Part shown: in pieces, positions 5,614 through 22,549 of the stretch
How the letters are laid out: each line of letters begins with the position of its first letter
Position numbering within the stretch: the first letter of the stretch is position 1
Virus record (IMG/VR): IMGVR_UViG_3300027974_000157
Span: 1 to 23,718 of that record
Reading direction: 5' to 3' (one strand)
Origin: a virus
Length of the DNA: 23,718 bases
Notes under the pieces: model-generated
What the model was told of the DNA's origin: nothing
What the model saw: only the letters and a program-made list of their open reading frames with translations
Databases searched by the model: none
Position numbers and translations under genes: made by a program

Positions 5614-6027
5614 TTATGGTTTATTTGGGTTTATCTGAGGTGAAGTCTGGCGAATGTCTTTTGCGTATGTGACTGCTGGCAACACGATCGGAAGACTATT
5701 GTTTACCAAATCGATCCAATCCTTGAATTTCATCGTGACGTGCCATTCTGTTTGATTTCTTCGATGGCACACGATAGGCGTCTTACCAGCTTTTGAATCG
5801 TTTGAAGATTGTTGCATCCAATCGTAAATTTTGGTTTGCTGGCAGTACTTGACCTCGACGTGGTAGGGCCAGAATTCTGATTCGACCAGTACATCACTAG
5901 CTCCCCCATCCGGTGACCCGCAGAACTGCTGGGCGCGCCTAGCCTTCCATCCAGCCTCACTGAGCAGGCTTGAGACCTCGCGTTCACCGCGTTTCCCCTT
6001 GTTGCGTGACATTTTTCCTCCGCCCAT
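5614..6027 (-). CDS. Hjc-like Holliday junction resolvase (PD-(D/E)XK)
   Basis: A 137-aa protein with an archaeal Hjc-type nuclease core: RNKGKRGEREVSSLL with E15, GASDVLV with D45, and YHVEVKYC with E58-x-K60, forming E...D...ExK. This family cleaves four-way DNA junctions as a dimer; in phages it replaces T7 endonuclease I for branched DNA removal before packaging. Two starts are possible: ATG 6027 with AAGGAGGT (4-nt gap), and ATG 6012 with GGAGG (4-nt gap). The second gives a form starting MSRNKGKRG, closest to the family. It begins the DNA-metabolism block after an unusual intergenic region. Confidence 0.85.
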   Translation of the reverse strand: MGGGKMSRNKGKRGEREVSSLLSEAGWKARRAQQFCGSPDGGASDVLVESEFWPYHVEVKYCQQTKIYDWMQQSSNDSKAGKTPIVCHRRNQTEWHVTMKFKDWIDLVNNSLPIVLPAVTYAKDIRQTSPQINPNKP

Positions 6028-6039
6028 GGTGACCTCCTT
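6013..6039 (-). promoter_or_regulatory. Two tandem Shine-Dalgarno sites for the resolvase
   Basis: On the minus strand, AAGGAGGT (6039-6032) stands 4 nt before ATG 6027, and GGAGG (6021-6017) stands 4 nt before ATG 6012. The second SD is also read as Gly-Gly codons of the longer form. Both starts may be used. Confidence 0.6.
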
Positions 6040-6121
6040 GTTTCAAGATCACCGGACTCTGCCGAGACACGGCATTCGAGTCAATATATTATTTTAGGGA
6101 AATTTTAATTAGCTTGACTTG
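6028..6121 (-). promoter_or_regulatory. Intergenic region with a hairpin and AT-rich block
   Basis: This 94-nt gap separates the virion/lysis block from the DNA-metabolism block. An imperfect hairpin is visible: ACTC TGCCG (6056-6064), a 5-nt loop AGACA (6065-6069), CGGCA (6070-6074), a TTC bulge and GAGT (6078-6081). An AT-rich tract (6082-6110) lies upstream in the transcription direction and holds a minus-strand TAAAAT (6096-6091) that could be a -10, plus a TTGACT (6084-6079). No T-run follows the hairpin, so it is not a standard terminator. A promoter or mRNA-processing site here is an inference. Confidence 0.4.
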
Positions 6122-6511
6122 CTATATCTTCGACAAACTCATCCAGGCAATTGAGTCCTCTGGAGACGCGCTTCGCGTAGACTTTATTTTGTTTGAATCA
6201 AATACCCACAGTAAGTCTTTGTCCAGCGCAACCAAGAATATTAGGTCGATACACTTGCCGTACTTCCTCTTGTCGACTCCGCGCCCGGTGCTGAACTTGT
6301 AGCTCGGGCCCCTTCTGCCATTACTGTGCAACCGTGGAGCGCCACACGACTTGACCTGGATTCTTTTGAATGCCCCATTCTTCTCCGCGACAATATCGTA
6401 CCCAGCGTTGTCCTCGAATGGGGTCAACACGTTCCACCCGGAAGCGAGGAGTCCTGCGATTACCCTGGCGACTCCTACTGCTCCTGTCTGACGATTACCC
6501 GGTTGGAGCAT
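6122..6511 (-). CDS. PD-(D/E)XK-like endonuclease, small
   Basis: A 129-aa protein from the ATG at 6511, which overlaps the end of the muramidase gene by 17 nt. In-frame alternatives are ATG 6556 and TTG 6592; none has a strong SD. The core is RQTGAVGVARVIAGLLASGW (helix), then TPFEDNAGYDIVAEK with D39 and KRIQVKSC with Q52-x-K54, the arrangement of PDDEXK_5-like small nucleases in which the acidic residue of motif III is Gln. The usual helix glutamate before motif II is not seen, so activity is uncertain. Its place beside the Hjc-like resolvase suggests DNA processing. Confidence 0.7.
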   Translation of the reverse strand: MLQPGNRQTGAVGVARVIAGLLASGWNVLTPFEDNAGYDIVAEKNGAFKRIQVKSCGAPRLHSNGRRGPSYKFSTGRGVDKRKYGKCIDLIFLVALDKDLLWVFDSNKIKSTRSASPEDSIAWMSLSKI

Positions 6512-7319
6512 TCCCGAAAAGTCTATATCTGTTCGAGACTCTATTCTGGAGACCATTGAGAAACTTTTTACGTTCCGGGTTCTGCTCCGCAAGCCTTCTC
6601 TCGTAGGTCATTTGCTCGACGGAAACGTTCTTCATTACATCTGATGGGTTCAGTCCTTCCAGGGCCTTGAGCGTCTGAGGCCCAAGGGCTCCGTCATCCT
6701 TCACCCCGATCGCGCGTTGCAGGAACTTTGTTGCACCCGCCGGACCCCTATTGAACGTTAGGTCCTGGAAAAAAAGCCTGTAAGGTTCTGGAAGTTTAGA
6801 CGTGATGGGCCTGGTATATTCTACGACGTACTTGGCCGCGGCGTCTCGACGTTCTCCAGGCGGAAGGTTCTTCAGCATCTGCGCGGCCGCGGGATGATAC
6901 TTGTCGTTGATCCCGGCGACTTCGTAGCTCCCGCCCATATCCCCGGAAGGAAGATTGTAGACCATGACGTTTCCGGCCTTGTCTTTCCTAGCCTCCATGT
7001 CGACCGTTGCTAAGGCCGCGTCGTATTCGTTCTTCGGGATCTTCGGTCCGATTAAGTTTTGGTCTTGCATAATGTTTTTAGTCACCTCGTCCTCCATTGC
7101 TCTTTGCGCTGTCTCTGCGCGGATATCGTCCATCGTCGCCGCGGACCGCATGCGCTCAGACATTGCGACCAGGCGCTGACCCTTCTCGTCTGTCCACCCC
7201 GCCCTCTGTGGTTCCTGCATGGGCCTGGACGCGTTTTGCCTGTCAAATTCCCCCGCCCCAAATGGGGTGAAATTTCTGCTTGCGCTTAGTTCCGGGATCT
7301 GTGTTAGAATGTTCGCCAT
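6495..7319 (-). CDS. GH108-like muramidase / tail or lysis peptidoglycan hydrolase
   Basis: A 274-aa protein. Residues 100-190 have the GH108/secretion-activator pattern: TVDMEARKDK with candidate catalytic E109, GDMGGSYEVAGINDKYHP (126-143), then LPEPYRLFFQDLTFNRGPAG. Residues 197-270 resemble the linked PG-binding domain (KFLQRAIGVKDDGALGPQTL, then KKFLNGLQNRVSNRYRLFG). It should cut N-acetylmuramyl linkages. There is no signal peptide, and about 90 polar N-terminal residues precede the enzyme. Position after the giant ejection protein and far from the holin-like gene allows either virion-associated entry muramidase or endolysin. Its SD region lies within the antisense gene's signal-peptide codons. 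Confidence 0.8.
   Translation of the reverse strand: MANILTQIPELSASRNFTPFGAGEFDRQNASRPMQEPQRAGWTDEKGQRLVAMSERMRSAATMDDIRAETAQRAMEDEVTKNIMQDQNLIGPKIPKNEYDAALATVDMEARKDKAGNVMVYNLPSGDMGGSYEVAGINDKYHPAAAQMLKNLPPGERRDAAAKYVVEYTRPITSKLPEPYRLFFQDLTFNRGPAGATKFLQRAIGVKDDGALGPQTLKALEGLNPSDVMKNVSVEQMTYERRLAEQNPERKKFLNGLQNRVSNRYRLFGNAPTG
7303..7310 (+). promoter_or_regulatory. Possible extended -10 promoter for the plus-strand gene
   Basis: TG-T-TAGAAT (7303-7310) matches the extended -10 TGnTATAAT at five of six hexamer bases. The expected start site, 6-8 nt downstream, falls on or next to the ATG at 7318, so a leaderless mRNA is possible. The -35 is poor (TTGCGC at 7280-7285, spacing 19). The element lies inside the first codons of the muramidase, antisense. 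Confidence 0.4.
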
Positions 7320-7590
7320 GAAGAAAATCCTATTGGTTACAGCATTATCACTCGGTCGTTGTTTCGCCGGGGATCTCCTCCTGGACGAGACAGGAACCTA
7401 CTCCGGCATGTTGGATCGGGGTATTCGCACAACAAGAACAGGGGCTATTGACGGAATGGTTTCCAGGAACAGGGGTTGGGTTAGCAATCGGAGCGGAAGA
7501 TTTGACGGTTTCATTACAAAGGACGGAACCGTGTTCGATTCCCGCGGTAGATTCTCCGGGTTGACCGATAGGCTCAAAGACGTCGAGTGA
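7318..7590 (+). CDS. Predicted secreted repeat protein, plus-strand moron gene (90 aa)
   Basis: The only convincing plus-strand gene. From ATG 7318 the product begins MKKILLVTALSLGRCFAGD: two lysines, a hydrophobic core and a CFA/G site suited to Sec signal peptidase I (no lipobox). The mature part has four units with the motif G-x-[Y/I/F]-[S/D]-G: TGTYSGM, TGAIDGM, SGRFDGF and RGRFSGL, about 17 residues apart, suggesting a repetitive beta structure, perhaps like bacterial beta-flower proteins (inference). The ORF fills the gap exactly: its ATG shares CATG with the opposite-strand muramidase start, and its TGA ends 2 nt from the giant gene's stop. There is no SD. It may act in the host periplasm, for example in exclusion or envelope modification. 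Confidence 0.62.
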   Translation: MKKILLVTALSLGRCFAGDLLLDETGTYSGMLDRGIRTTRTGAIDGMVSRNRGWVSNRSGRFDGFITKDGTVFDSRGRFSGLTDRLKDVE

Positions 7591-7592
7591 GG

Positions 7593-10500
7593 TCATTTTT
7601 TGGCCTCCAATTGCTTTTTAATTAGCCTAGACTTTACTGCTGTCTCCAACTCTTGAGCCGGAACATTTCCGGAAGTTGCGCCTCGAACTCCGCGTCCATC
7701 TCGTCCTCTATCGTTCTGTCCGGCCATGCTACGCTGAGATAGTTTTCCCGGGTTAGCGGAAGTCCCTCCCGGAGCAGGAACCTTACCGCTCCGTCCTGCC
7801 CAGCTAGGGTCCTCAATTCCTCCGGCGAATTTGCTGATTGTGTTTCTTGCTTCATCGATACTTATCCTTCCTTTAGTATAGCTCTTCCATACGCTGTTTA
7901 CAAATGCTTTATTTTTAGCCTGGGCCTTGAATGCTGGCCTAAATAGTCCACGGATTGCCTCCCAAGTTATACTCTGCATTTCCCGGGGGAGCACTCCGCG
8001 CTCCTTTGCTGCGTTCCTGTAAGCCTCGGCAAATAGTCCGTACATGCCAGATATCCCGAGAATCGCAGACGATGGACCTCCGCCGAGGTTGTGCTTAACC
8101 TCTATCGACGATCCTGACAGCGGTCGATAAAGCGCAGCCGCTACGGCATGAGTGTCAATTGTAGAATCACCATACTTCGCATTCGGCTGAAGTATGTTGT
8201 TAAAAAAGTTCCTTACCTTGTGTTCACCACCAAGTTGCTTGTGGATATTCTCCTTCGATCCATCCATTAATATGCTGATTGCCTTTTCTATTTGCGAGAA
8301 TGACCCCCATCCGACCTTTGATTCTTTTCCGTTGCCCTTTAGCTTTTTCCCAAGAATCTCTCCGCTCGGACTATAGACGTCGAACGCTCTTGAATTATTC
8401 ACCTCATCAAAAGCCCGGACAAATATAGCTTTGTCAAATGTGTCAGCTATTTCGCTATAGCGCTTCCCAAGAAGATTTTCCTTCGCATGCCTGGCGAACT
8501 GTCTTGTTGCCTTTTTTGACTTTAACCAATTCAACATTTGAGGTGTAAATATTTCGTTTGATTTGGTTCCGTGAATGTCGATGACTCTTCTTGCAAGAGA
8601 TATATTCATGAACCAATCTTTTTGCGGTGAAAGTACGGCAAATACTCCGGCAACTTGTCTTGTGGCAATTTTATAGTTCTTTGACAATTCTTCGGACATT
8701 TTCCTGGCTCCGTCGTACCACTTCTTTGCCTCCTCCCTTAGTCTTGGTGCAAAAGAATCGTACAAATAAAGAAGATTGCTTTTTGCGTGATCAACAAATT
8801 CTTTCAAAATTCCTTCGGTCGTTTTGCTTTTTGGGCTAAATCCAATATAATTCTTAACAATATCTGCTTGTTTTTTAGCCAAATCTTTGTCTCTCAAAAC
8901 TGTATCTAAACCAATTGTAAGATTTTCTTTAATAGGGTCTTCGGTCGCCCTTACTGCCTTTGGGCTCCTCTGACTCACCCAAAATTGTTCGTCCTTCTTT
9001 TCAGCCGGACTTGCCGGGGCAAACTGCTTCTGCTCTTCGCCACCGATTAAGCTAGTAAACTTTGGTTCATTCTTGGCAGTACCGGAAAACTCTTTCTCCA
9101 TCTCCTGCATCTTACGAACCCCGGCGACAACCTCTGGGGTGATGTCAACAGACCATATTGGAATCTTGTCTGGCGCAACAATCCTAGATCCAGGGTTGGC
9201 AGCCATTGACTCCATGGCATTTTTCTTTCCATCCGCTGGAATTGTTCTTCCGTCCTCGGTTACAACATACCAACGATCATTTACGATTGCAGACTTTTCT
9301 ACTGGAGATCCGTACTGCTTCATGTACTTGCCAATTTCAGATGGAAGCATTTCGTCGTAAAACTTTGTCATGCCTTTTTTGCCGTCTTCAGATATTCCGG
9401 GGTATCTGTCCACTTGCTCTGCGCCTGTCGTCCATCCAATCCACTCCTTATCGGATTCTACTGCCTCAACCAATGCCCTCTTAAAATTCTGAACAGGCCA
9501 ATCCTTACGGAACGGAGCGTCTGGAACCTTGTCCTGACCATATCCTCTTGGCTCCGCATTGGCGAATGCATCTATTCTGGATATAATCGCCATTTCATTT
9601 TCAGTTAGATTTGGATCGTTCCTCCTATATCCCAAATCGCTGTCGTACGCCTCGTAATCACTCTTTGACGGCATGTTTTTGCTTGACTCTCCAATGTACC
9701 CGTATTTTCTTCCGGCTTGATGCAAATCGCTTTGATTTTCCTGCATAAAAAGACCTTCGCGTCCCTTTATGTCTGGCCTTTCATCTAGGCGCATGTGCGC
9801 GATGTAGCCTGGTATCGGATAATGTTTCGACATGTATGCTTTATCAATTGGCATGTCAGGCAATTTTGCGTCATACTTTTTAGCTAAATCAACAACTTCT
9901 TGCGTAACAATGTCTCCAAATTCAACAATTCTGTCGTTTGTTGTAATGTCATCTCCGCTAATTCTTCCATAATCAAGTTCATCTAGCCCGGCTGCGCTTA
10001 TGTCTGTAAGGAAATCATCTGCATCTTGTGCGTTCTTAAATTCAATTTTGTATGGTTCTGTTCTTTTTGTTTTCGAATCCTGCTTCAACGACAAAACAAC
10101 TTCTCTATAATTTTTACCACCAGGAGTCGTGAATGACCCAAATCTTGGAGCATTGCCTGAAGTTTTTGCATATTCCAATCGTTCTGCCCTTGCGTTCAAG
10201 TGCTCTGCTTTTTTCATCATGCGATCAAAGGCATCATAAATCTTGCTTTCGCCAATTTTCCCAAGATTTGTTGGAGAGTTTTTCAAGAAATTCCTGGCGT
10301 CTTCCTCTGCAATCATTGCCATTCTTGTGAGTTGGCTGGATGTGTAAATATTATCGCGACGATTTTGCAAATCCATCATTTCACCGTATGCACCATCCCC
10401 CATCTCGTCATCCATTCCTCCAAGGGGATTCGCTAAGTCTGCAGTCTCAAGCTCCTTGAGCCTTGATGCCTCCTGTTCGTTTAGCGGAACCTTCTGGCCT

Positions 10501-13500
10501 TTCGATGTCCCATACCTAGTCTCCTCAATCTTGACCTTGCCCTTCCCGGCCAGGAATTCTTCCAGCTTATCTCTTGGTACTTTCCCAGCGTTTTCACTTG
10601 CAAGTCTATCAATCTCTTCATTAATTCCTGACCACTTAATATCCTCCTCGTTCACCCCGCGAGTCTGGCCTGGCTTAATAATTGCCTTTACTTGCTCCGG
10701 AGTGGCAAGTCTTGGCATCTTGTCGCGAATAGCCTTCTGGAGCGACACATCTCCGGGCGCCAAGTTCGCAGCTTGCTTCTGGTAGTCGAAGAAAAATCCT
10801 GTGCGTCCGGTATCGCGAGAGTTGGCAATGCGGTCCAGGCGATAGGATTTGACTAGGCTCCCCGGAGGGCGTCCTTCGGCTGCGTACATTGGGTTCGCAT
10901 TTTTGTTGGCAATGTTTGTGATGCCGAATAGGTAGTTGATCGCGTTGCGCTTATCGATCCCGATCCCTGTCTCGCCTGGCCTTTCGTTGGCGTGGTTGTC
11001 CAGGTACTGCATGACGTCCTTCTCGTAGGATGCCAGGTCTCCGCCCCACACCTCGTTGATCCGGCCCTTGCCACTCCTAGCAAAATCAAGCATGCGACCG
11101 CGCAGGGCGGAAATGTCTACAGCTTGCGCCAGGATGTTCCCGGCCTTTGACAGGCGCCAGCCAAGGAACGCGATCTCGGATTGTCCAACCTTAATATTGC
11201 CTAGTCCGCGCTTAACAGACTGAGCCCAGCTACCATCCTCGCCTGTGCCGACCTTTTGGTACCAGACAGAATATGTCTTGCCATCCCGGCGACTATCTTG
11301 AAGGGCCTTGGCTACTTCCTTTGTAAAATCATTAAAACTGTCGAGACTGAAGAATCCCTCTGGGAGAGTATTTCCACCGACGTATGGTTTGCCGTCGGAC
11401 TGAATTTTGACGCCAAACTCAGGGCTCCCACGCTCCAGGACAGCGTCCGGATTATATAGGCGCCCAACGTCCGCCACCCTGGCCTTGTCAACCGCCAGGA
11501 TCGATGCCGGATCCTTGGCTCGAACAGTTCCGTCCGGGAACCTGACCGCAAAATCGTTCTCTTCGAGATTTGTCTTTCTGTTGCGAGTAAACTGGATTGC
11601 TGGATTGTTCGCTAGGTTTCTGTTTCCTGGGCCTGGGACTAGCGTCACGTCCTTCTGCTTCTCTGCCTTCTCTAGTCCGTCAAGATACTTGTCGCGATCC
11701 CGGAACCATCTTGCGGTCAACTCTCGAAGCTGTTTAGACGGAACCAGTGGATTGTCCTTGAATAGCGTGTCAATATTCGTCGGCTTAGGCCCTGTCGTAT
11801 CGATCCCAAACTTATTCAAAAGCCTGCCAACAGGGGCCAAGAATCCTTCCTGGAGAGACAGAAGATTCGTTCCTGGCAAGGTTCTGCGACGAAGTGAGTC
11901 AAGATCCCTACCGCGGGACTCGCCAACAAACTGCTCCGCCAGGACCTCGTCCGCGATCCAATCAAGATCCCCGGCTCCAGGCTCGGACCGCTGAGACGCT
12001 TCTCTTAGTTCGTTCGCCTTGGCTCGCACCTCGGCCTCGGTTGGGGCTCCTCTGCCCTGGCGCTCACCCTCAAGAAGTTTCCTGGCGTACTCGTTCCCTC
12101 TCCTGCGAAGACCTTCTTCACCGTACTCAGTCATGACTGCCATACGACCCTCGGACTTGTTAATCGCTGGAGACTTTTGAATTGCGTGTAAAATCTCATG
12201 TCTCACCGTGTCTCCGGTAGACCTCTTGTCGTCCATGTTGATCAGCAGTCTGAATTTTCCGCTCCTGTCCTGCACTCCCTTGACAACTCCGGCCGCGTTG
12301 ATCCCGGCATTCTCTGGCATCATAAACGAATCGCGACTATGGAATTCAACCTGGACGTCAGGTGCCATCATCTGGAGCGTCGCGGCGTCTAGGAATGGAC
12401 GATTATCTTTTCGGACGTAGTTGGCTATGCTCTCAACGTCCAATCCTAATTCTGCCTGCTTTGCAAATAGCCTGTTAACGTCACCCTGCTTTGCCAGGGC
12501 TTTCCTGGCTGGCTGTTGGGAAATTCCTCTAAATCCTCCTCCGACTGCCCCCATCCTAGATCCAATTGCCACTCCGCCACCAATGCCTTCTTCTTCGCCA
12601 CCGGACCCAACGTAGCCTAATCCTGCTCCAACGACCGCTCCCTTTGCCGATCCCACCCCTATGTCTAGTCCAAGTTCAGCAGTTTTGGCAGTTATTGGAG
12701 ACGATAGAACTGATGTGTTCGCAGCCCGGCGCAACCATTCTGGATTCTTCTGATTCTTGGCAATCCTCTGCATAAGGTTCATGCGAGAAGGTCCTGTCAT
12801 TGCTTCTTCGCCCATAATGCTCGCGGCCTGGGCTCCTTTTTCTATAACCTCTGCTCCAGCCCTGGTCGCTGCAATCTTGGCTCCGACCGGGAACGCTCCA
12901 GGAATGCCTACCGCAGCCGCTCCTGTAGCAATTGCTCCTGCAGTCTTTGGCGCAGTTACGCCAGGCAGAACGCGCTGGATGCCCTGCCCAACCTTTTCGA
13001 CTCCAAGATCAATCACGTTCCCAACAGCCCTAGCTCCAGTTTCAACTCCTTCGGCAACCTTAGTCCCAACTCTTAATCCCCTGCTAGCTTTTGACGCGGC
13101 GGATGTAGCCCTCGCTCCTGGACCGACGAGTGGTGCAAATGTTGTGGGGTCGAGGAACATTGATCCAACCTCTGCAACCCCCGGCATGATCGACTCCTTC
13201 GGCAATCCAATAATGCTTTTCCCCTGAGCTCTTTCGGCGTTTATCTTCTCAACTGCCTGCATCTGGTAGTTTTGGTCGATCGTCTTTTGGTTTAAGTACG
13301 ATTTATAATCCGCCTGGAGACCGAGCGCTCCGGCGGCCATGTAAGGTGCCTTCTCAATAAATTTCGACGCACCGACTACTGTCGTGCCGAGATCCATGGT
13401 GCCTCTTGCTAGCGCTTCGGCTGCCGTTGCGAGGGGTTTTATTTCGTCACCAAACTCAATAGGCTTTTTGTAATATTCTGCAATATCTTGCCCAGCCTTG

Positions 13501-13829
13501 CCAAAAGCATCTTTAAAGTACTGCTTCCCGCCCTCATACCCGGTTTCAAATTTCTTACTGAATGTGGGTTCGGTTCTTTTTAGAAGAAGAAACTCGTCTT
13601 CACTTGCTATAAAGTTTGGGTCTGATTCGTCCTGAGATCTAATAAACTCGGCAGAAGTCAACTCGTCCGCAAATATTGGTTTTGAATCTACAAATTGAAC
13701 CTTGCCTTCATACGATTCGTGGACGATCCTTGCCTCGTCCTGCGTGAACTCAAACTGAGGATTTTCGCGATACTGGCGAAGCAGATAGTTTGCCGCCTCG
13801 CGTTTATCCTGGATGATTTCGTCGGCCAT
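7593..13829 (-). CDS. Giant internal virion/ejection protein (2078 aa), polyvalent, with zinc peptidase motif
   Basis: By size and position it corresponds to the large T7 gp16-type ejected protein, and it combines several modules. Residues 290-330 and 385-435 are Gly/Ala-rich hydrophobic stretches that may enter membranes. A zinc peptidase lies at 540-635: HEILH (H544, E545, H548) with ADEVLAEQF giving E628/E632 as third-ligand candidates. Residues 1358-1575 hold a phage polyvalent-protein module (ENQSDLHQAGRKYGY, APFRKDWPVQNFKRALVEA, EWIGWTTGAEQVDRY, WSVDITPEVV). Residues 1700-1960 form a helical domain with VAGVFAVLSPQKDW, STIDTHAVAAALY and LPREMQSITWEAIRGLF, seen at the C terminus of other phage polyvalent proteins. 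It is probably injected with the DNA and may digest host proteins or block defences. The roles of the last two modules are not established. Confidence 0.85.
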   Translation of the reverse strand: MADEIIQDKREAANYLLRQYRENPQFEFTQDEARIVHESYEGKVQFVDSKPIFADELTSAEFIRSQDESDPNFIASEDEFLLLKRTEPTFSKKFETGYEGGKQYFKDAFGKAGQDIAEYYKKPIEFGDEIKPLATAAEALARGTMDLGTTVVGASKFIEKAPYMAAGALGLQADYKSYLNQKTIDQNYQMQAVEKINAERAQGKSIIGLPKESIMPGVAEVGSMFLDPTTFAPLVGPGARATSAASKASRGLRVGTKVAEGVETGARAVGNVIDLGVEKVGQGIQRVLPGVTAPKTAGAIATGAAAVGIPGAFPVGAKIAATRAGAEVIEKGAQAASIMGEEAMTGPSRMNLMQRIAKNQKNPEWLRRAANTSVLSSPITAKTAELGLDIGVGSAKGAVVGAGLGYVGSGGEEEGIGGGVAIGSRMGAVGGGFRGISQQPARKALAKQGDVNRLFAKQAELGLDVESIANYVRKDNRPFLDAATLQMMAPDVQVEFHSRDSFMMPENAGINAAGVVKGVQDRSGKFRLLINMDDKRSTGDTVRHEILHAIQKSPAINKSEGRMAVMTEYGEEGLRRRGNEYARKLLEGERQGRGAPTEAEVRAKANELREASQRSEPGAGDLDWIADEVLAEQFVGESRGRDLDSLRRRTLPGTNLLSLQEGFLAPVGRLLNKFGIDTTGPKPTNIDTLFKDNPLVPSKQLRELTARWFRDRDKYLDGLEKAEKQKDVTLVPGPGNRNLANNPAIQFTRNRKTNLEENDFAVRFPDGTVRAKDPASILAVDKARVADVGRLYNPDAVLERGSPEFGVKIQSDGKPYVGGNTLPEGFFSLDSFNDFTKEVAKALQDSRRDGKTYSVWYQKVGTGEDGSWAQSVKRGLGNIKVGQSEIAFLGWRLSKAGNILAQAVDISALRGRMLDFARSGKGRINEVWGGDLASYEKDVMQYLDNHANERPGETGIGIDKRNAINYLFGITNIANKNANPMYAAEGRPPGSLVKSYRLDRIANSRDTGRTGFFFDYQKQAANLAPGDVSLQKAIRDKMPRLATPEQVKAIIKPGQTRGVNEEDIKWSGINEEIDRLASENAGKVPRDKLEEFLAGKGKVKIEETRYGTSKGQKVPLNEQEASRLKELETADLANPLGGMDDEMGDGAYGEMMDLQNRRDNIYTSSQLTRMAMIAEEDARNFLKNSPTNLGKIGESKIYDAFDRMMKKAEHLNARAERLEYAKTSGNAPRFGSFTTPGGKNYREVVLSLKQDSKTKRTEPYKIEFKNAQDADDFLTDISAAGLDELDYGRISGDDITTNDRIVEFGDIVTQEVVDLAKKYDAKLPDMPIDKAYMSKHYPIPGYIAHMRLDERPDIKGREGLFMQENQSDLHQAGRKYGYIGESSKNMPSKSDYEAYDSDLGYRRNDPNLTENEMAIISRIDAFANAEPRGYGQDKVPDAPFRKDWPVQNFKRALVEAVESDKEWIGWTTGAEQVDRYPGISEDGKKGMTKFYDEMLPSEIGKYMKQYGSPVEKSAIVNDRWYVVTEDGRTIPADGKKNAMESMAANPGSRIVAPDKIPIWSVDITPEVVAGVRKMQEMEKEFSGTAKNEPKFTSLIGGEEQKQFAPASPAEKKDEQFWVSQRSPKAVRATEDPIKENLTIGLDTVLRDKDLAKKQADIVKNYIGFSPKSKTTEGILKEFVDHAKSNLLYLYDSFAPRLREEAKKWYDGARKMSEELSKNYKIATRQVAGVFAVLSPQKDWFMNISLARRVIDIHGTKSNEIFTPQMLNWLKSKKATRQFARHAKENLLGKRYSEIADTFDKAIFVRAFDEVNNSRAFDVYSPSGEILGKKLKGNGKESKVGWGSFSQIEKAISILMDGSKENIHKQLGGEHKVRNFFNNILQPNAKYGDSTIDTHAVAAALYRPLSGSSIEVKHNLGGGPSSAILGISGMYGLFAEAYRNAAKERGVLPREMQSITWEAIRGLFRPAFKAQAKNKAFVNSVWKSYTKGRISIDEARNTISKFAGGIEDPSWAGRSGKVPAPGGTSANPGKLSQRSMAGQNDRGRDGRGVRGATSGNVPAQELETAVKSRLIKKQLEAKK

Positions 13830-13835
13830 GACCGA

Positions 13836-14801
13836 CTAACGGTTTGGAATTACTCTTCGAGTGCGAGGATCGTATCCGCCAAATCCGGATGGGCTCATCG
13901 GTTGCGATTGCTGTTGCATTGGGGCCTGGTACGGCTGTTGTGCCTGAGCCGGAGCAGTTGCGTCTTCCCTGTTCCTCTTTGGCAATTCAATTGTTCTCCC
14001 GGAAATTCTCTTGTAATCGTTGGCCTTAATATCGAGCCGATTCCTGAGCATCTTAATTCCTTCGAGGGTCGTCGCAGTTCTTGGCCCAGCAATCGGCAGA
14101 TCTAATCCGGGAACCTCAACCGGACTTGTTCCCAATGCCATCGTCTCTAGGAATGATTTGACTTCACTTTCTCTTGCGACAGATCCTGGGTCAAGCGCCT
14201 TGGCTAAAGCCACTGCAAGGAAATACGGTTTCTGACGAAGGGCCGCGCTTCCTTCTGGATTTGATATTTCGTAATTGCCGTATTTCTTAACTACGTCCTC
14301 AAGTTCGTCTGCCAGCCTATAGGCGTCGGTGGCATTCATCTCGAAAGCGACATCGGCAGCGGTCAATTCCTTGCCCTTGGCCTGGATGGACTTCTTCGCC
14401 ATGTCGACTGTCTTCATCTTCATGTCCCTCTTGATCGGATCAGTTTCTAGCCCTGCCATTCTTTCGTATCTGGCAACTCTGTCCATCATGCCCTCAAGAT
14501 AGTTATACTGGTCCTCTTCCGGTGTTCCGGCTGGAACATTCAGGCTAGTTCCTGGAATTGTTGTTGTGCCAGTTGTCTCGTAAAGAGTCTGCATTAGCGC
14601 AGCCCTTCTCGCCGAGTCTGTGGTCTGCATTAATTCTTCCGCTGCCTTTTGTGCAGTGTCTGCTGGATAGAGTTTTTGCTTCAGCATTTCAACGCGAAGT
14701 TGACGATCTTCATCTTCAACAGCCTGAGCCCTTTCTGCGTCCGCATAGTACTTCTCGCTCCAGGGCATCGTGACTAATGGTCTTTGAATTCTGTCTGCCA
14801 T
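13836..14801 (-). CDS. Internal virion protein, helical (321 aa)
   Basis: It lies between the 612-aa protein (4-nt gap) and the 2078-aa ejection protein (6-nt gap). The first 170 residues are charged helices (YYADAERAQAVEDEDRQLRV, then YPADTAQKAAEELMQTT). The middle holds a compact segment (FEMNATDAYRLADELEDVVK, then FLAVALAKALDPGSVAR). The C terminus is low-complexity Gln/Pro/Ala (QAQQPYQAPMQQQ). No enzymatic motif is visible. Context indicates a structural or ejected protein of the inner core; homology to a named T7 protein is not detectable by eye. Confidence 0.75.
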   Translation of the reverse strand: MADRIQRPLVTMPWSEKYYADAERAQAVEDEDRQLRVEMLKQKLYPADTAQKAAEELMQTTDSARRAALMQTLYETTGTTTIPGTSLNVPAGTPEEDQYNYLEGMMDRVARYERMAGLETDPIKRDMKMKTVDMAKKSIQAKGKELTAADVAFEMNATDAYRLADELEDVVKKYGNYEISNPEGSAALRQKPYFLAVALAKALDPGSVARESEVKSFLETMALGTSPVEVPGLDLPIAGPRTATTLEGIKMLRNRLDIKANDYKRISGRTIELPKRNREDATAPAQAQQPYQAPMQQQSQPMSPSGFGGYDPRTRRVIPNR

Positions 14802-20194: not shown

Positions 20195-21787
20195 TTAGCA
20201 GGCCATCAGCACACAGGGGACGCAATAGCTTCCGTCCTCGTAAGTGCAAGTTACATTTGTTGAAGTAACCTTGGCGATAGTCTTGGATCGGATAATGTCA
20301 TCGCCTTGGGGCTTGGCGGTTCCATCGCCAGCAGACATTAACAAATCACCACGATTAACGCTTGTTCCTTGAGCAATACGGATAATCATATCTCCTGTCA
20401 TTGCCATATTGAGATCAAATGGATTGTCTTGATCGTCATTATCCCAATTAACAAACACGCCTGCTGTATTCAAATCGCCTTCAACGTCTGAAATTTTAAC
20501 TTTGTTTAACTGCTCGTTAGGGAGAAGGTTCCCATCCGCATCTCTCCATTCACACATTGCGTCAAGATTGGATAATACAGTTCCTTTTTTAATTGCTGGA
20601 TCTCGCTGACCAGATGGCAACTGCGAAAATCTCGAAAGATGGCCTCCGTTATATGAAACAGTTGTTCCACTTACTGATATTGTTCCCTCAACAGTTCCAT
20701 CTTGCGCAATTTGAACTATGATTCCATCATCAGTATTTCTATTAAAAAATGCAGATGGACCACTAGCAGCTCCACACGCAATTTTGTTATCAGAAGGAGA
20801 AAATTGAAATCCAACAGTTGATGTGCTTGGTGATGTTTTCCCAACCAACAAATTCCCACTCGAATCAATGCGGAGGCGTTCTGTTCCTGCTGTTTGAAAG
20901 ATTGTAAGTTTTCCGCTGAATGCATTTATGAATAAAGCATTCGAGTCATTATATATTTGTGCTATTGTTGAGCCAGCGGTCATAAATTGTTGCGCTCCAC
21001 CCGTCGATCCATTTATTGATAGCGTTGAATATGCGGAACCATTATTAACTGGAGAATTAGTCCCAATCCCAACATTGCCACTCGAATCAATGCGGAGGCG
21101 TTCTGTGCCTGATGTATAAATTACTGCCCCAGTACTAGCTCCCCATGAGCCAAGATAAGCGTTACTGTCTGCACCAAAAAAACCAGTAACGGAGTATTTA
21201 CTGGCATCATCGGAATCTCGAAAATATGTTGCCGCACCAGTACTGCTTCTAATATCCAAAGACCTACCAAAATTATTTGTGTCGGCAGGACTCGTAGTCC
21301 CAATCCCAACATTTCCACTCGCTGCCTTGTAAATCTGCCCACTTCCAATGTTAATTACATTTGTAGATCCAGTAATCGTTCCAAGGAATGTTGATGTGGT
21401 TGCGGAAAGATTTGTAATCGTTCCGTTCGTAACGACTTCATTGGTTGATGTGGTAGTTCCAGTGGTAAGGGTTGGGATCGTGCCAGTAGTGCTGTTAAGG
21501 GTAGCAATCGTGCCATTCGTAATCGTTGCGCCAGAGAACGTGCCGTTGGTCAGTGTATCGGAAAACAGTTTCTGCACCGTTACCCGGTTCGCGGCCACCT
21601 GGGGACTTCCTATCGATGACGAGTCCGCAATGAGCAATAAATCTCCAGTGCCTACAGTTGTCTTTGCTTCCTGAGTCGAGATTAGCCCGGCATAAATATT
21701 GGTCTCGTCGATAAGGTTGTGCAGACCAGCTGCCGTGACCGTGCCGTTGGTTGCGAAGTCGAAATTGCGATCGAGTACGTTTGCCAT
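20195..21787 (-). CDS. Tail fibre / receptor-binding protein (530 aa)
   Basis: The N-terminal 190 residues are low-complexity Thr/Asn/Gly-rich beta repeats (NGTFSGATITNGTIATL and similar). The middle has three copies of the fibre motif TERLRIDSSGN (followed by VGIGT or LLVGKT), common in trimeric phage fibres and adhesins. The C-terminal domain (about 410-530) carries GDMIIRIAQGTSVNRGDLL and DIIRSKTIAKVTST and ends with four cysteines (CTYEDGSYCVPCVLMAC), similar to fibre ends in marine phages. It should bind the host surface. The gene is AT-richer in 20400-21400 than its neighbours, as often seen with exchanged receptor-binding genes. It lies before the tail tube genes instead of after the internal proteins as in T7. 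Confidence 0.82.
   Translation of the reverse strand: MANVLDRNFDFATNGTVTAAGLHNLIDETNIYAGLISTQEAKTTVGTGDLLLIADSSSIGSPQVAANRVTVQKLFSDTLTNGTFSGATITNGTIATLNSTTGTIPTLTTGTTTSTNEVVTNGTITNLSATTSTFLGTITGSTNVINIGSGQIYKAASGNVGIGTTSPADTNNFGRSLDIRSSTGAATYFRDSDDASKYSVTGFFGADSNAYLGSWGASTGAVIYTSGTERLRIDSSGNVGIGTNSPVNNGSAYSTLSINGSTGGAQQFMTAGSTIAQIYNDSNALFINAFSGKLTIFQTAGTERLRIDSSGNLLVGKTSPSTSTVGFQFSPSDNKIACGAASGPSAFFNRNTDDGIIVQIAQDGTVEGTISVSGTTVSYNGGHLSRFSQLPSGQRDPAIKKGTVLSNLDAMCEWRDADGNLLPNEQLNKVKISDVEGDLNTAGVFVNWDNDDQDNPFDLNMAMTGDMIIRIAQGTSVNRGDLLMSAGDGTAKPQGDDIIRSKTIAKVTSTNVTCTYEDGSYCVPCVLMAC
20856..20884 (-). repeat. 29-nt direct repeat, copy 1 (fibre gene)
   Basis: This 29-nt sequence encodes the RLRIDSS fibre motif and is identical to 21078-21106. 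Identity at the DNA level, including third codon positions, points to recent duplication or recombination. Confidence 0.8.
21078..21106 (-). repeat. 29-nt direct repeat, copy 2 (fibre gene)
   Basis: Identical to 20856-20884 over 29 nt. A third, partly similar segment occurs at 21300-21325, where the sequence before GIGTTSP (CCCAATCCCAACATT) is shared. Confidence 0.8.
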
Positions 21788-21788
21788 A

Positions 21789-22322
21789 TTAAGTTGTAAA
21801 CCTCATTGCGGTTGCGAAGATTGTTCCCGCTGGTATTGTGCCGTTTGTTTGGGTGGAATTGAAAATTGTAAAACGCAATACACCCGCTGACTCAATCCTA
21901 AAGTCTTGCAATAATCCAGCAGGCGTTGCTCCAGTTGTAGATCCAATTGAATTTATACTGCCAATGACCATGTCGCCAAGAACAACCCCAGATGCCGCAA
22001 GCGTTCCAGTGCTTACATTCAATCCTGTTGTTGCGTGGTCAATATCCAATACTGTCCCGCCAGTGTATGCTGCGGTTGCAAATGTTACCGCCGTAAGGCT
22101 TGGACCAGATGCACCAACTTTCAGAGTACCAACTGTGGCAAGCCCATCCACCGCAAGCGACCCGGTGCTCTTTACCCCTGTCGTCGATATCTGTAGGGCC
22201 GAGACTCCAGCCTCGTCTCCACTAGAAACGGCTCGCAGTGTTCCGTCGACAATGTTGCTACCAAACGTCTTTAGGAGTTGGGTGTAGCTTGTGCTGATTG
22301 TCTGTGTGCCGAGTGTAGCCAT
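21789..22322 (-). CDS. Virion-associated fibre-like protein (177 aa)
   Basis: A 177-aa protein, MATLGTQTISTSYTQLLKTF onward, rich in Gly/Thr/Ser/Ala with beta-strand repeats (TGSLAVDGLATVGTLKVG, then TGTLAASGVVLGDMVIG). The C-terminal strand FRIESAGVLRFTIFNSTQT resembles beta-sandwich ends of fibre accessory proteins. Its start overlaps the TAA of the holin-like gene (TAATG), and the 530-aa fibre gene follows after 1 nt. It is probably a second fibre subunit or fibre connector. No enzyme motif is present. Confidence 0.7.
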   Translation of the reverse strand: MATLGTQTISTSYTQLLKTFGSNIVDGTLRAVSSGDEAGVSALQISTTGVKSTGSLAVDGLATVGTLKVGASGPSLTAVTFATAAYTGGTVLDIDHATTGLNVSTGTLAASGVVLGDMVIGSINSIGSTTGATPAGLLQDFRIESAGVLRFTIFNSTQTNGTIPAGTIFATAMRFTT

Positions 22323-22549
22323 TAGTGGTTCATCCTGTTTTTGACTAGGTCCCAGGCAACGGAAAACAGTAGCCCGGCGACCCCAGCAATTGCGAATATC
22401 CTAGAACGGAGGTGTTCTAGGGCAGAAACTCTATTTACCACATCCGCGTAGTTTGACAAGCTGGTCTCGACCATTTGGTACAACTGGACCTGGCGCTCTT
22501 CCATCCGGGCCAATTTGATTTCTATGCTCCAAACTTGCTCCTCACTCAT
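22322..22549 (-). CDS. Coiled-coil/TM protein, holin- or XhlA-like (75 aa)
   Basis: Residues 1-47 are a heptad-like amphipathic helix (IEIKLARMEERQVQLYQMVE, then VVNRVSALEHLRSR), followed by one hydrophobic segment IFAIAGVAGLLFSVAWDLV (about 51-69) and the tail KNRMNH. This layout, an N-terminal coiled coil plus a C-terminal membrane helix, is that of haemolysin XhlA-type proteins and small phage holins. It overlaps the 42-aa lipoprotein (ATGA) and the fibre-like gene (TAATG). With the lipoprotein it could form a lysis pair. An alternative is a tail-anchored membrane protein of the virion or a superinfection factor. Confidence 0.65.
   Translation of the reverse strand: MSEEQVWSIEIKLARMEERQVQLYQMVETSLSNYADVVNRVSALEHLRSRIFAIAGVAGLLFSVAWDLVKNRMNH

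Follow-up and report, generated by a model that had tools for sequence, protein, structure and literature searches.

A lineage-specific phage gene for a predicted secreted repeat protein, antisense to its neighbours, is in one of its types co-inherited with a version of putative ejection proteins

The window analyzed here is a stretch of 23,718 nucleotides (nt) from a virus (IMG/VR record IMGVR_UViG_3300027974_000157, positions 1 to 23,718). Between a muramidase-like gene and the gene of a giant putative ejection protein of 2078 amino acids (aa), both on the minus strand, it contains a plus-strand open reading frame (ORF, 7318–7590) which starts with ATG and encodes a 90-aa product with a signal peptide and four repeats. 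This plus gene is a genuine gene with selection acting on its amino acids, it is lineage-specific, and one of its sequence types is inherited along with a particular version each of the giant protein's N-terminus and a putative ejection protein of 321 aa. From these sequence comparisons we tentatively read the product as a factor for superinfection exclusion that acts in the periplasm and is directed against the ejection apparatus (probability about 0.45).

The comparison set consisted of the window and 18 further IMG/VR contigs of uncultured phages with a homologue of the plus gene. The frame is intact and located at the same site in all 19 genomes. The 18 closest muramidase loci (85–97% identity) belong to these same 18 contigs, so that the insertion, which the sequence-only reading (an earlier inspection of the letters of the window) had proposed to search for in related phages, is present in every close relative found (18/18). 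According to the mature chain, three types can be distinguished, A (window and five others), B (five genomes), and C (eight genomes), which share about 35–51% identity over the full length. In the mature region, the plus frame has 66 synonymous changes among 124 (40.3 expected, p 0.0005), in contrast to 28 of 124 in the codon-aligned antisense frame (33.8 expected), where no excess was detected. The within-type ratio of nonsynonymous to synonymous substitution rates (dN/dS) is 0 to 0.45 in the plus frame, which is the purifying selection that the proposed dN/dS check was meant to reveal, and mostly near or above 1 in the antisense frame where defined. A minus frame that stays open in relatives while the plus frame is not conserved or acquires stops had been named as evidence against the gene. 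An open minus frame was indeed found in all 19 genomes, but the plus frame is open as well, and the selection analysis decides in its favor.

At more distant muramidase loci (45–58% identical), a comparable ORF with a signal peptide was absent in a crude scan. In those more distant phages that were inspected, the stop of the gene preceding the muramidase overlaps or directly adjoins the muramidase start, with nothing in between. We call this an empty junction and not an empty site in the strict sense, because the preceding gene may not be a homologue of the giant gene. No convincing homologues outside the group were obtained from annotated phages, plasmids, or bacterial genomes. The product matches phrog_18536 (unknown function) weakly and gave no match in a PADLOC search. 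An integrase was found in none of the 18 records, some of them fragments; to this extent, the lytic-type setting deduced earlier is supported. One 47-kb contig (IMGVR_UViG_3300027971_000073, loci L113–L115) is possibly a chimera assembled from two strains, because different alleles of the same genes for tail and internal virion proteins are found at its two ends.

The features of the plus gene agree with the first description. By eye, a Sec-type signal peptide is recognizable (MKKILLVTALSLGRCFA followed by GD), with KK, a hydrophobic core, and a CFA/G site. The mature chain contains four G-x-[YIF]-[SD]-G motifs starting at residues 26, 42, 60, and 77, whereas shuffled mature chains contained 0.04 on average (p about 5e-5). 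Tandem repeats at the DNA level were not found. The signal-peptide segment and the mature part appear to have separate histories: the first 57 nt are identical in G001 (type A) and G006 (type B) despite their different mature types. The fit between the neighbors is as tight as claimed, since the ATG shares the palindrome CATG with the divergent muramidase ATG, and 2 nt lie between the stop codon (7588–7590) and the end of the giant gene. A 13-nt block (GAGTGAGGTCATT, 7586–7598) joins the two convergent stop codons, is invariant in the 19 genomes, and may be a recombination point between variable segments. The description as a reverse-oriented, lineage-specific repeat gene with a signal peptide therefore holds. 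Nothing found contradicts its being the only convincing plus-strand gene of the window, for which no exhaustive test was made.

To find partners, each remaining gene of the 19 genomes was tested for association with the type of the plus gene; 17 genomes provided data for the pairing of type A. Type A occurs exclusively with a particular version, A′, of the 321-aa protein and of the giant N-terminus (5 A versus 12 non-A genomes, zero exceptions). Chance labelling would produce such a perfect match in 1 of 6188 cases, a value which takes into account neither the approximately 35 segments tested nor shared ancestry. The 321-aa gene is the only strongly linked gene (0.175 within and 0.421 between, with p 0.0005 as the lowest value that the test can give; Mantel r 0.77, p 0.0005), and its products are 96–98% identical among A genomes and mostly 49–58% identical between A and the others. 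The giant gene is weakly linked, and mapping places the signal in its first roughly 450–600 residues. For all other genes, the Mantel r is 0.19 or less, the exceptions being the giant N-terminus and the antisense ORF itself. A and non-A genomes fall cleanly apart in three segments only, namely the mature chain, the 321-aa gene, and the first roughly 450 residues of the giant protein. No such division was seen in the muramidase (p 0.32, r 0.10), in the remainder of the giant protein, or in about 25 further genes. The giant protein beyond about 450 aa is unlinked to the plus type, and its C-terminus is modular, with modules common to A and non-A genomes (window/G006/G014, G001/G012, G003/G008, G005/G013). 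In this C-terminal part (window and L113–L153), related phages have swapped at least five modules, which are either unrelated to one another or highly diverged; DUF7178 is located in the version of the window. A pairing of the toxin-immunity kind with the muramidase or a giant C-terminal module was rejected, as both are unlinked to the plus type. The 321-aa gene was also present on 24 additional contigs, none of which matched the plus gene; they are short and, judged together and not singly, probably break off within the giant gene.

A signal peptide would direct the product to the periplasm, and ejection proteins of virions turn up in this compartment only if the cell is injected by another phage. 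The co-inheritance with putative ejection proteins thus suggests superinfection exclusion, for which P22 SieA, T4 Spackle, and, as a third case, T5 Llp are precedents. The infected cell would make a small periplasmic protein of four beta-hairpin repeats, which would hinder the machinery through which a related incoming phage ejects its DNA, its partners being the 321-aa protein and the N-terminus of the giant protein. A moron of the lysogenic-conversion or superinfection-exclusion kind had been suggested by the sequence-only reading; exclusion is a reasonable role and gains support from the linkage to putative ejection-protein alleles, whereas export, early expression, direct contact with the ejected proteins, and exclusion itself are what we infer.

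Several observations weigh against this proposal. The linkage consists of a single split, A versus B/C. No correlation was detected within B/C, and B and C share one partner version, although they differ from each other about as much as either differs from A. Even if the proteins do not interact, physical linkage over about 6 kb could produce this pattern, provided that the middle of the giant gene is often replaced. An ejection role was assigned to the 321-aa protein by gene position, its gene being flanked by other putative internal virion genes; the protein has no family or PDB match. A standard sigma-70 scan found no promoter for the plus gene, and the candidate extended −10 element, which would give a leaderless mRNA, belongs to a pattern about as frequent in the window as chance expects and is thus a weak candidate. 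Within it, CTGTGTTAGA is invariant in the 19 genomes, and the last bases of the hexamer vary; the element as a whole is conserved in most of them. The independent expression suggested earlier from the orientation is plausible, but the promoter and terminator candidates of the gene are weak and do not rise above chance.

Under hitchhiking, the association would have no function: a single inherited block with an often replaced middle would extend from the plus gene to the 321-aa/giant N-terminal region, and the product would have another role in the envelope. The single split and the cassette-like recombination of the giant middle and C-terminus are as expected in that case, but recombination was also seen right next to the block at either flank (muramidase and signal-peptide segment; 612-aa gene), and still no exchange between A and non-A occurred in 17 genomes; we regard hitchhiking as quite unlikely. 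Adaptation to the host envelope, with the product acting on a periplasmic or envelope target of the host and A and A′ suiting the same host group without contact, would account for both the co-inheritance and the signal peptide, and phage periplasmic proteins with host targets exist (T5 Llp on FhuA; PMC9586334). Host specificity should show first in the adsorption genes; because the tail fiber and other genes of the adsorption region are unlinked (20195–21787, r 0.01, few genomes), this explanation seems unlikely.

The head-to-head arrangement with a muramidase-like gene and a size near that of T4 Spackle (97 aa, 75 aa mature; PMC7677548) would suit a modulator of peptidoglycan degradation, i.e. 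a Spackle-like inhibitor of the adjacent muramidase that delays lysis or blocks the muramidase of a superinfecting virion. The muramidase alleles, however, are 85–97% identical to that of the window throughout and lack linkage as given above, and the plus types diverge far more than their proposed target, which makes such an inhibitor improbable. The antisense ORF (7348–7596), which was absent from the earlier account, might itself be the real gene with the plus frame as its by-product: it runs with the operon, its start forms an ATGA overlap with the giant-gene stop behind GGAGG, and it is open in all 19 genomes. This candidate was rejected as highly improbable, since only the plus frame has the synonymous excess, most antisense dN/dS values are close to 1 or higher, and the motifs of the plus product are retained from type to type.

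The antisense frame is probably a translated bridge which keeps the muramidase expressed, with its own amino acids apparently free of constraint; this assignment, made from sequence, is the simplest reading of a frame that stays open in this way. Sequence GAGGC at its presumed ribosome binding site is kept in all 19 genomes despite differing giant C-termini (EAKK versus KRGVQ). The ORF ends in TGA 28 nt before the muramidase ATG, and codon 11 of the plus gene is TCA in all 19 genomes, resulting in the same antisense stop throughout. At 41 Leu/Ser positions of the mature part, none of the codons TTA, CTA, and TCA, which would create antisense stops, is used. Across the phage genes these three amount to 21% of Leu/Ser codons, which gives a P of about 6e-5 for their absence under independence of the positions; the chance by a cruder, window-based estimate is 0.133 per type. 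The plus gene does contain many other codons ending in A. The bridge would preserve muramidase expression now that the plus gene occupies a translationally coupled junction: ribosomes would start at GAGG/ATGA by the giant stop, run to the TGA, and still reach the muramidase. The candidate Shine-Dalgarno sequence of the latter (ATCCT on the plus strand) is invariant in the 19 genomes. A reading of GAGG..CCTC as a terminator was set aside, because the scan was not above chance, the foldings were unremarkable, and the Shine-Dalgarno reading on the other strand fits better. The full combination, a lytic-type podovirus-like phage with a soluble, allele-matched periplasmic factor against the DNA-ejection channel, encoded antisense over a bridge ORF whose only job would be carrying ribosomes to the next gene, appears rather unlikely as a whole.

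With respect to the fold, a likeness to beta-flower proteins had been suggested. An AlphaFold2 model of a type C relative shows four hairpins, with a predicted local distance difference test value (pLDDT) of about 90 in the mature part, which is all-beta except for a short C-terminal turn. Beta-flower proteins have four to six beta-hairpins in a shallow barrel, and the comparison with them covered the number of hairpins. The model of type A is poor. The best Pfam score was obtained for type C locus L028 with PF21785 (Bflower_2; E 1.1e-4, 22.4 bits, cut-off 38); type A locus L019 scored 14.1 bits with PF21784 (cut-off 25), and the window protein matched neither family. The modelled hairpins and the E-value favor the suggestion, but all scores are under the curated Pfam cut-offs, and with this sub-threshold support the product is described as beta-flower-like, not as a member of the family. 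Motifs of the form [DNEQ]xxG, which beta-flower proteins have at their hairpin tips, were seen by eye in the sequence of several repeats (DETG, DSRG, DASG). Foldseek searches against solved or viral predicted structures gave no match at E<=0.001, and a PDB sequence search gave none either, Spackle included.

Table 1. Coordinates of the plus gene, its overlapping elements, and its neighbors in the window
Feature	Position	Strand	Remarks
Secreted repeat protein gene	7318..7590	+	open in 19 genomes; purifying selection on plus frame
Sec-type signal peptide segment, codons 1–17	7318..7368	+	DNA mostly conserved across types; recombines apart from mature part
Mature chain, 73 aa, four hairpin repeats	7369..7587	+	types A (window), B, C
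CATG palindrome with both divergent start codons (plus gene, muramidase)	7317..7320	both	sequence; identical in all relatives
Candidate extended −10 TGTTAGAAT	7302..7310	+	7 nt before ATG, within muramidase codons
Antisense ORF, codon-aligned with plus gene	7348..7596	−	open in all 19; not under purifying selection
GGAGG, Shine-Dalgarno-like	7604..7608	−	7 nt before antisense-ORF ATG
Candidate Shine-Dalgarno AGGA of muramidase	7328..7331	−	8 nt before muramidase ATG, inside signal-peptide codons
Muramidase-like gene (PG_binding_3; endolysin phrog_315)	6495..7319	−	family matches
Giant protein gene, 2078 aa, putative ejection protein	7593..13829	−	first ~450 aa (about 12480–13829) linked to plus type
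321-aa putative ejection/internal virion protein	13836..14801	−	A′ version only with plus-gene type A

Elsewhere on the minus strand of the window, a 2OG-Fe(II) oxygenase gene and two glycosyltransferase-like genes (GT9, weak GT8) at 442–2873 are possible auxiliary genes for sugar or surface modification. Two adjacent PD-(D/E)XK nuclease genes (5614–6592) lie beside the muramidase. A 75-aa protein with a hydrophobic C-terminal stretch and no PHROGs family match (22322–22549) is possibly holin-like.

If the exclusion reading is true, a secreted modular factor with a suggested partner in an apparently lytic phage makes such a mechanism testable elsewhere. Selection for protein in one frame and only for openness in the opposite one would be an unusual way to add a gene to a coupled operon. 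The co-inheritance scan in a recombining phage group is a usable route to partners of orphan phage proteins.

The beta-flower proteins of PF21784/PF21785, for which no tested function was reported (PMC10584680), resemble the product in their short beta-hairpin repeats with glycine-containing motifs and, in some cases, export signals; the product differs in its scores below the curated cut-offs and in its phage setting, and a closed flower topology would be conjecture for it. P22 SieA, an inner-membrane superinfection-exclusion protein acting on ejection proteins (PMC10883804), is likewise phage-encoded and thought to block DNA ejection of short-tailed phages via these proteins. It comprises three highly diverged sequence types, two of which were compared without a difference in target specificity (PMC10883804). 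The product differs from it as a small signal-peptide protein from a lineage in which no integrase was found. Allele matching with the targeted phage component is a criterion of our own which the SieA types did not show; the pairing of A with A′, free of exceptions in 17 genomes but seen as one split, may be a case of it. T5 Llp (PMC9586334) is also a small early protein of a lytic phage that stops reinfection from the periplasmic side, but it is a lipoprotein jamming the receptor FhuA, whereas the plus product lacks a proper lipobox, the residue preceding its Cys15 being R, H, or N. T4 Spackle (PMC7677548) is alpha-helical with a disulfide and targets the tail lysozyme, in contrast to the beta-repeat chain and the unlinked muramidase found here; with an all-beta model and no sequence match, the product was not assigned to the Spackle family. 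In common with the proposed role, Spackle is a small exported protein of a lytic phage that acts in the periplasm on the superinfecting virion, and its mature chain of 75 aa compares with 73 aa for the plus product.
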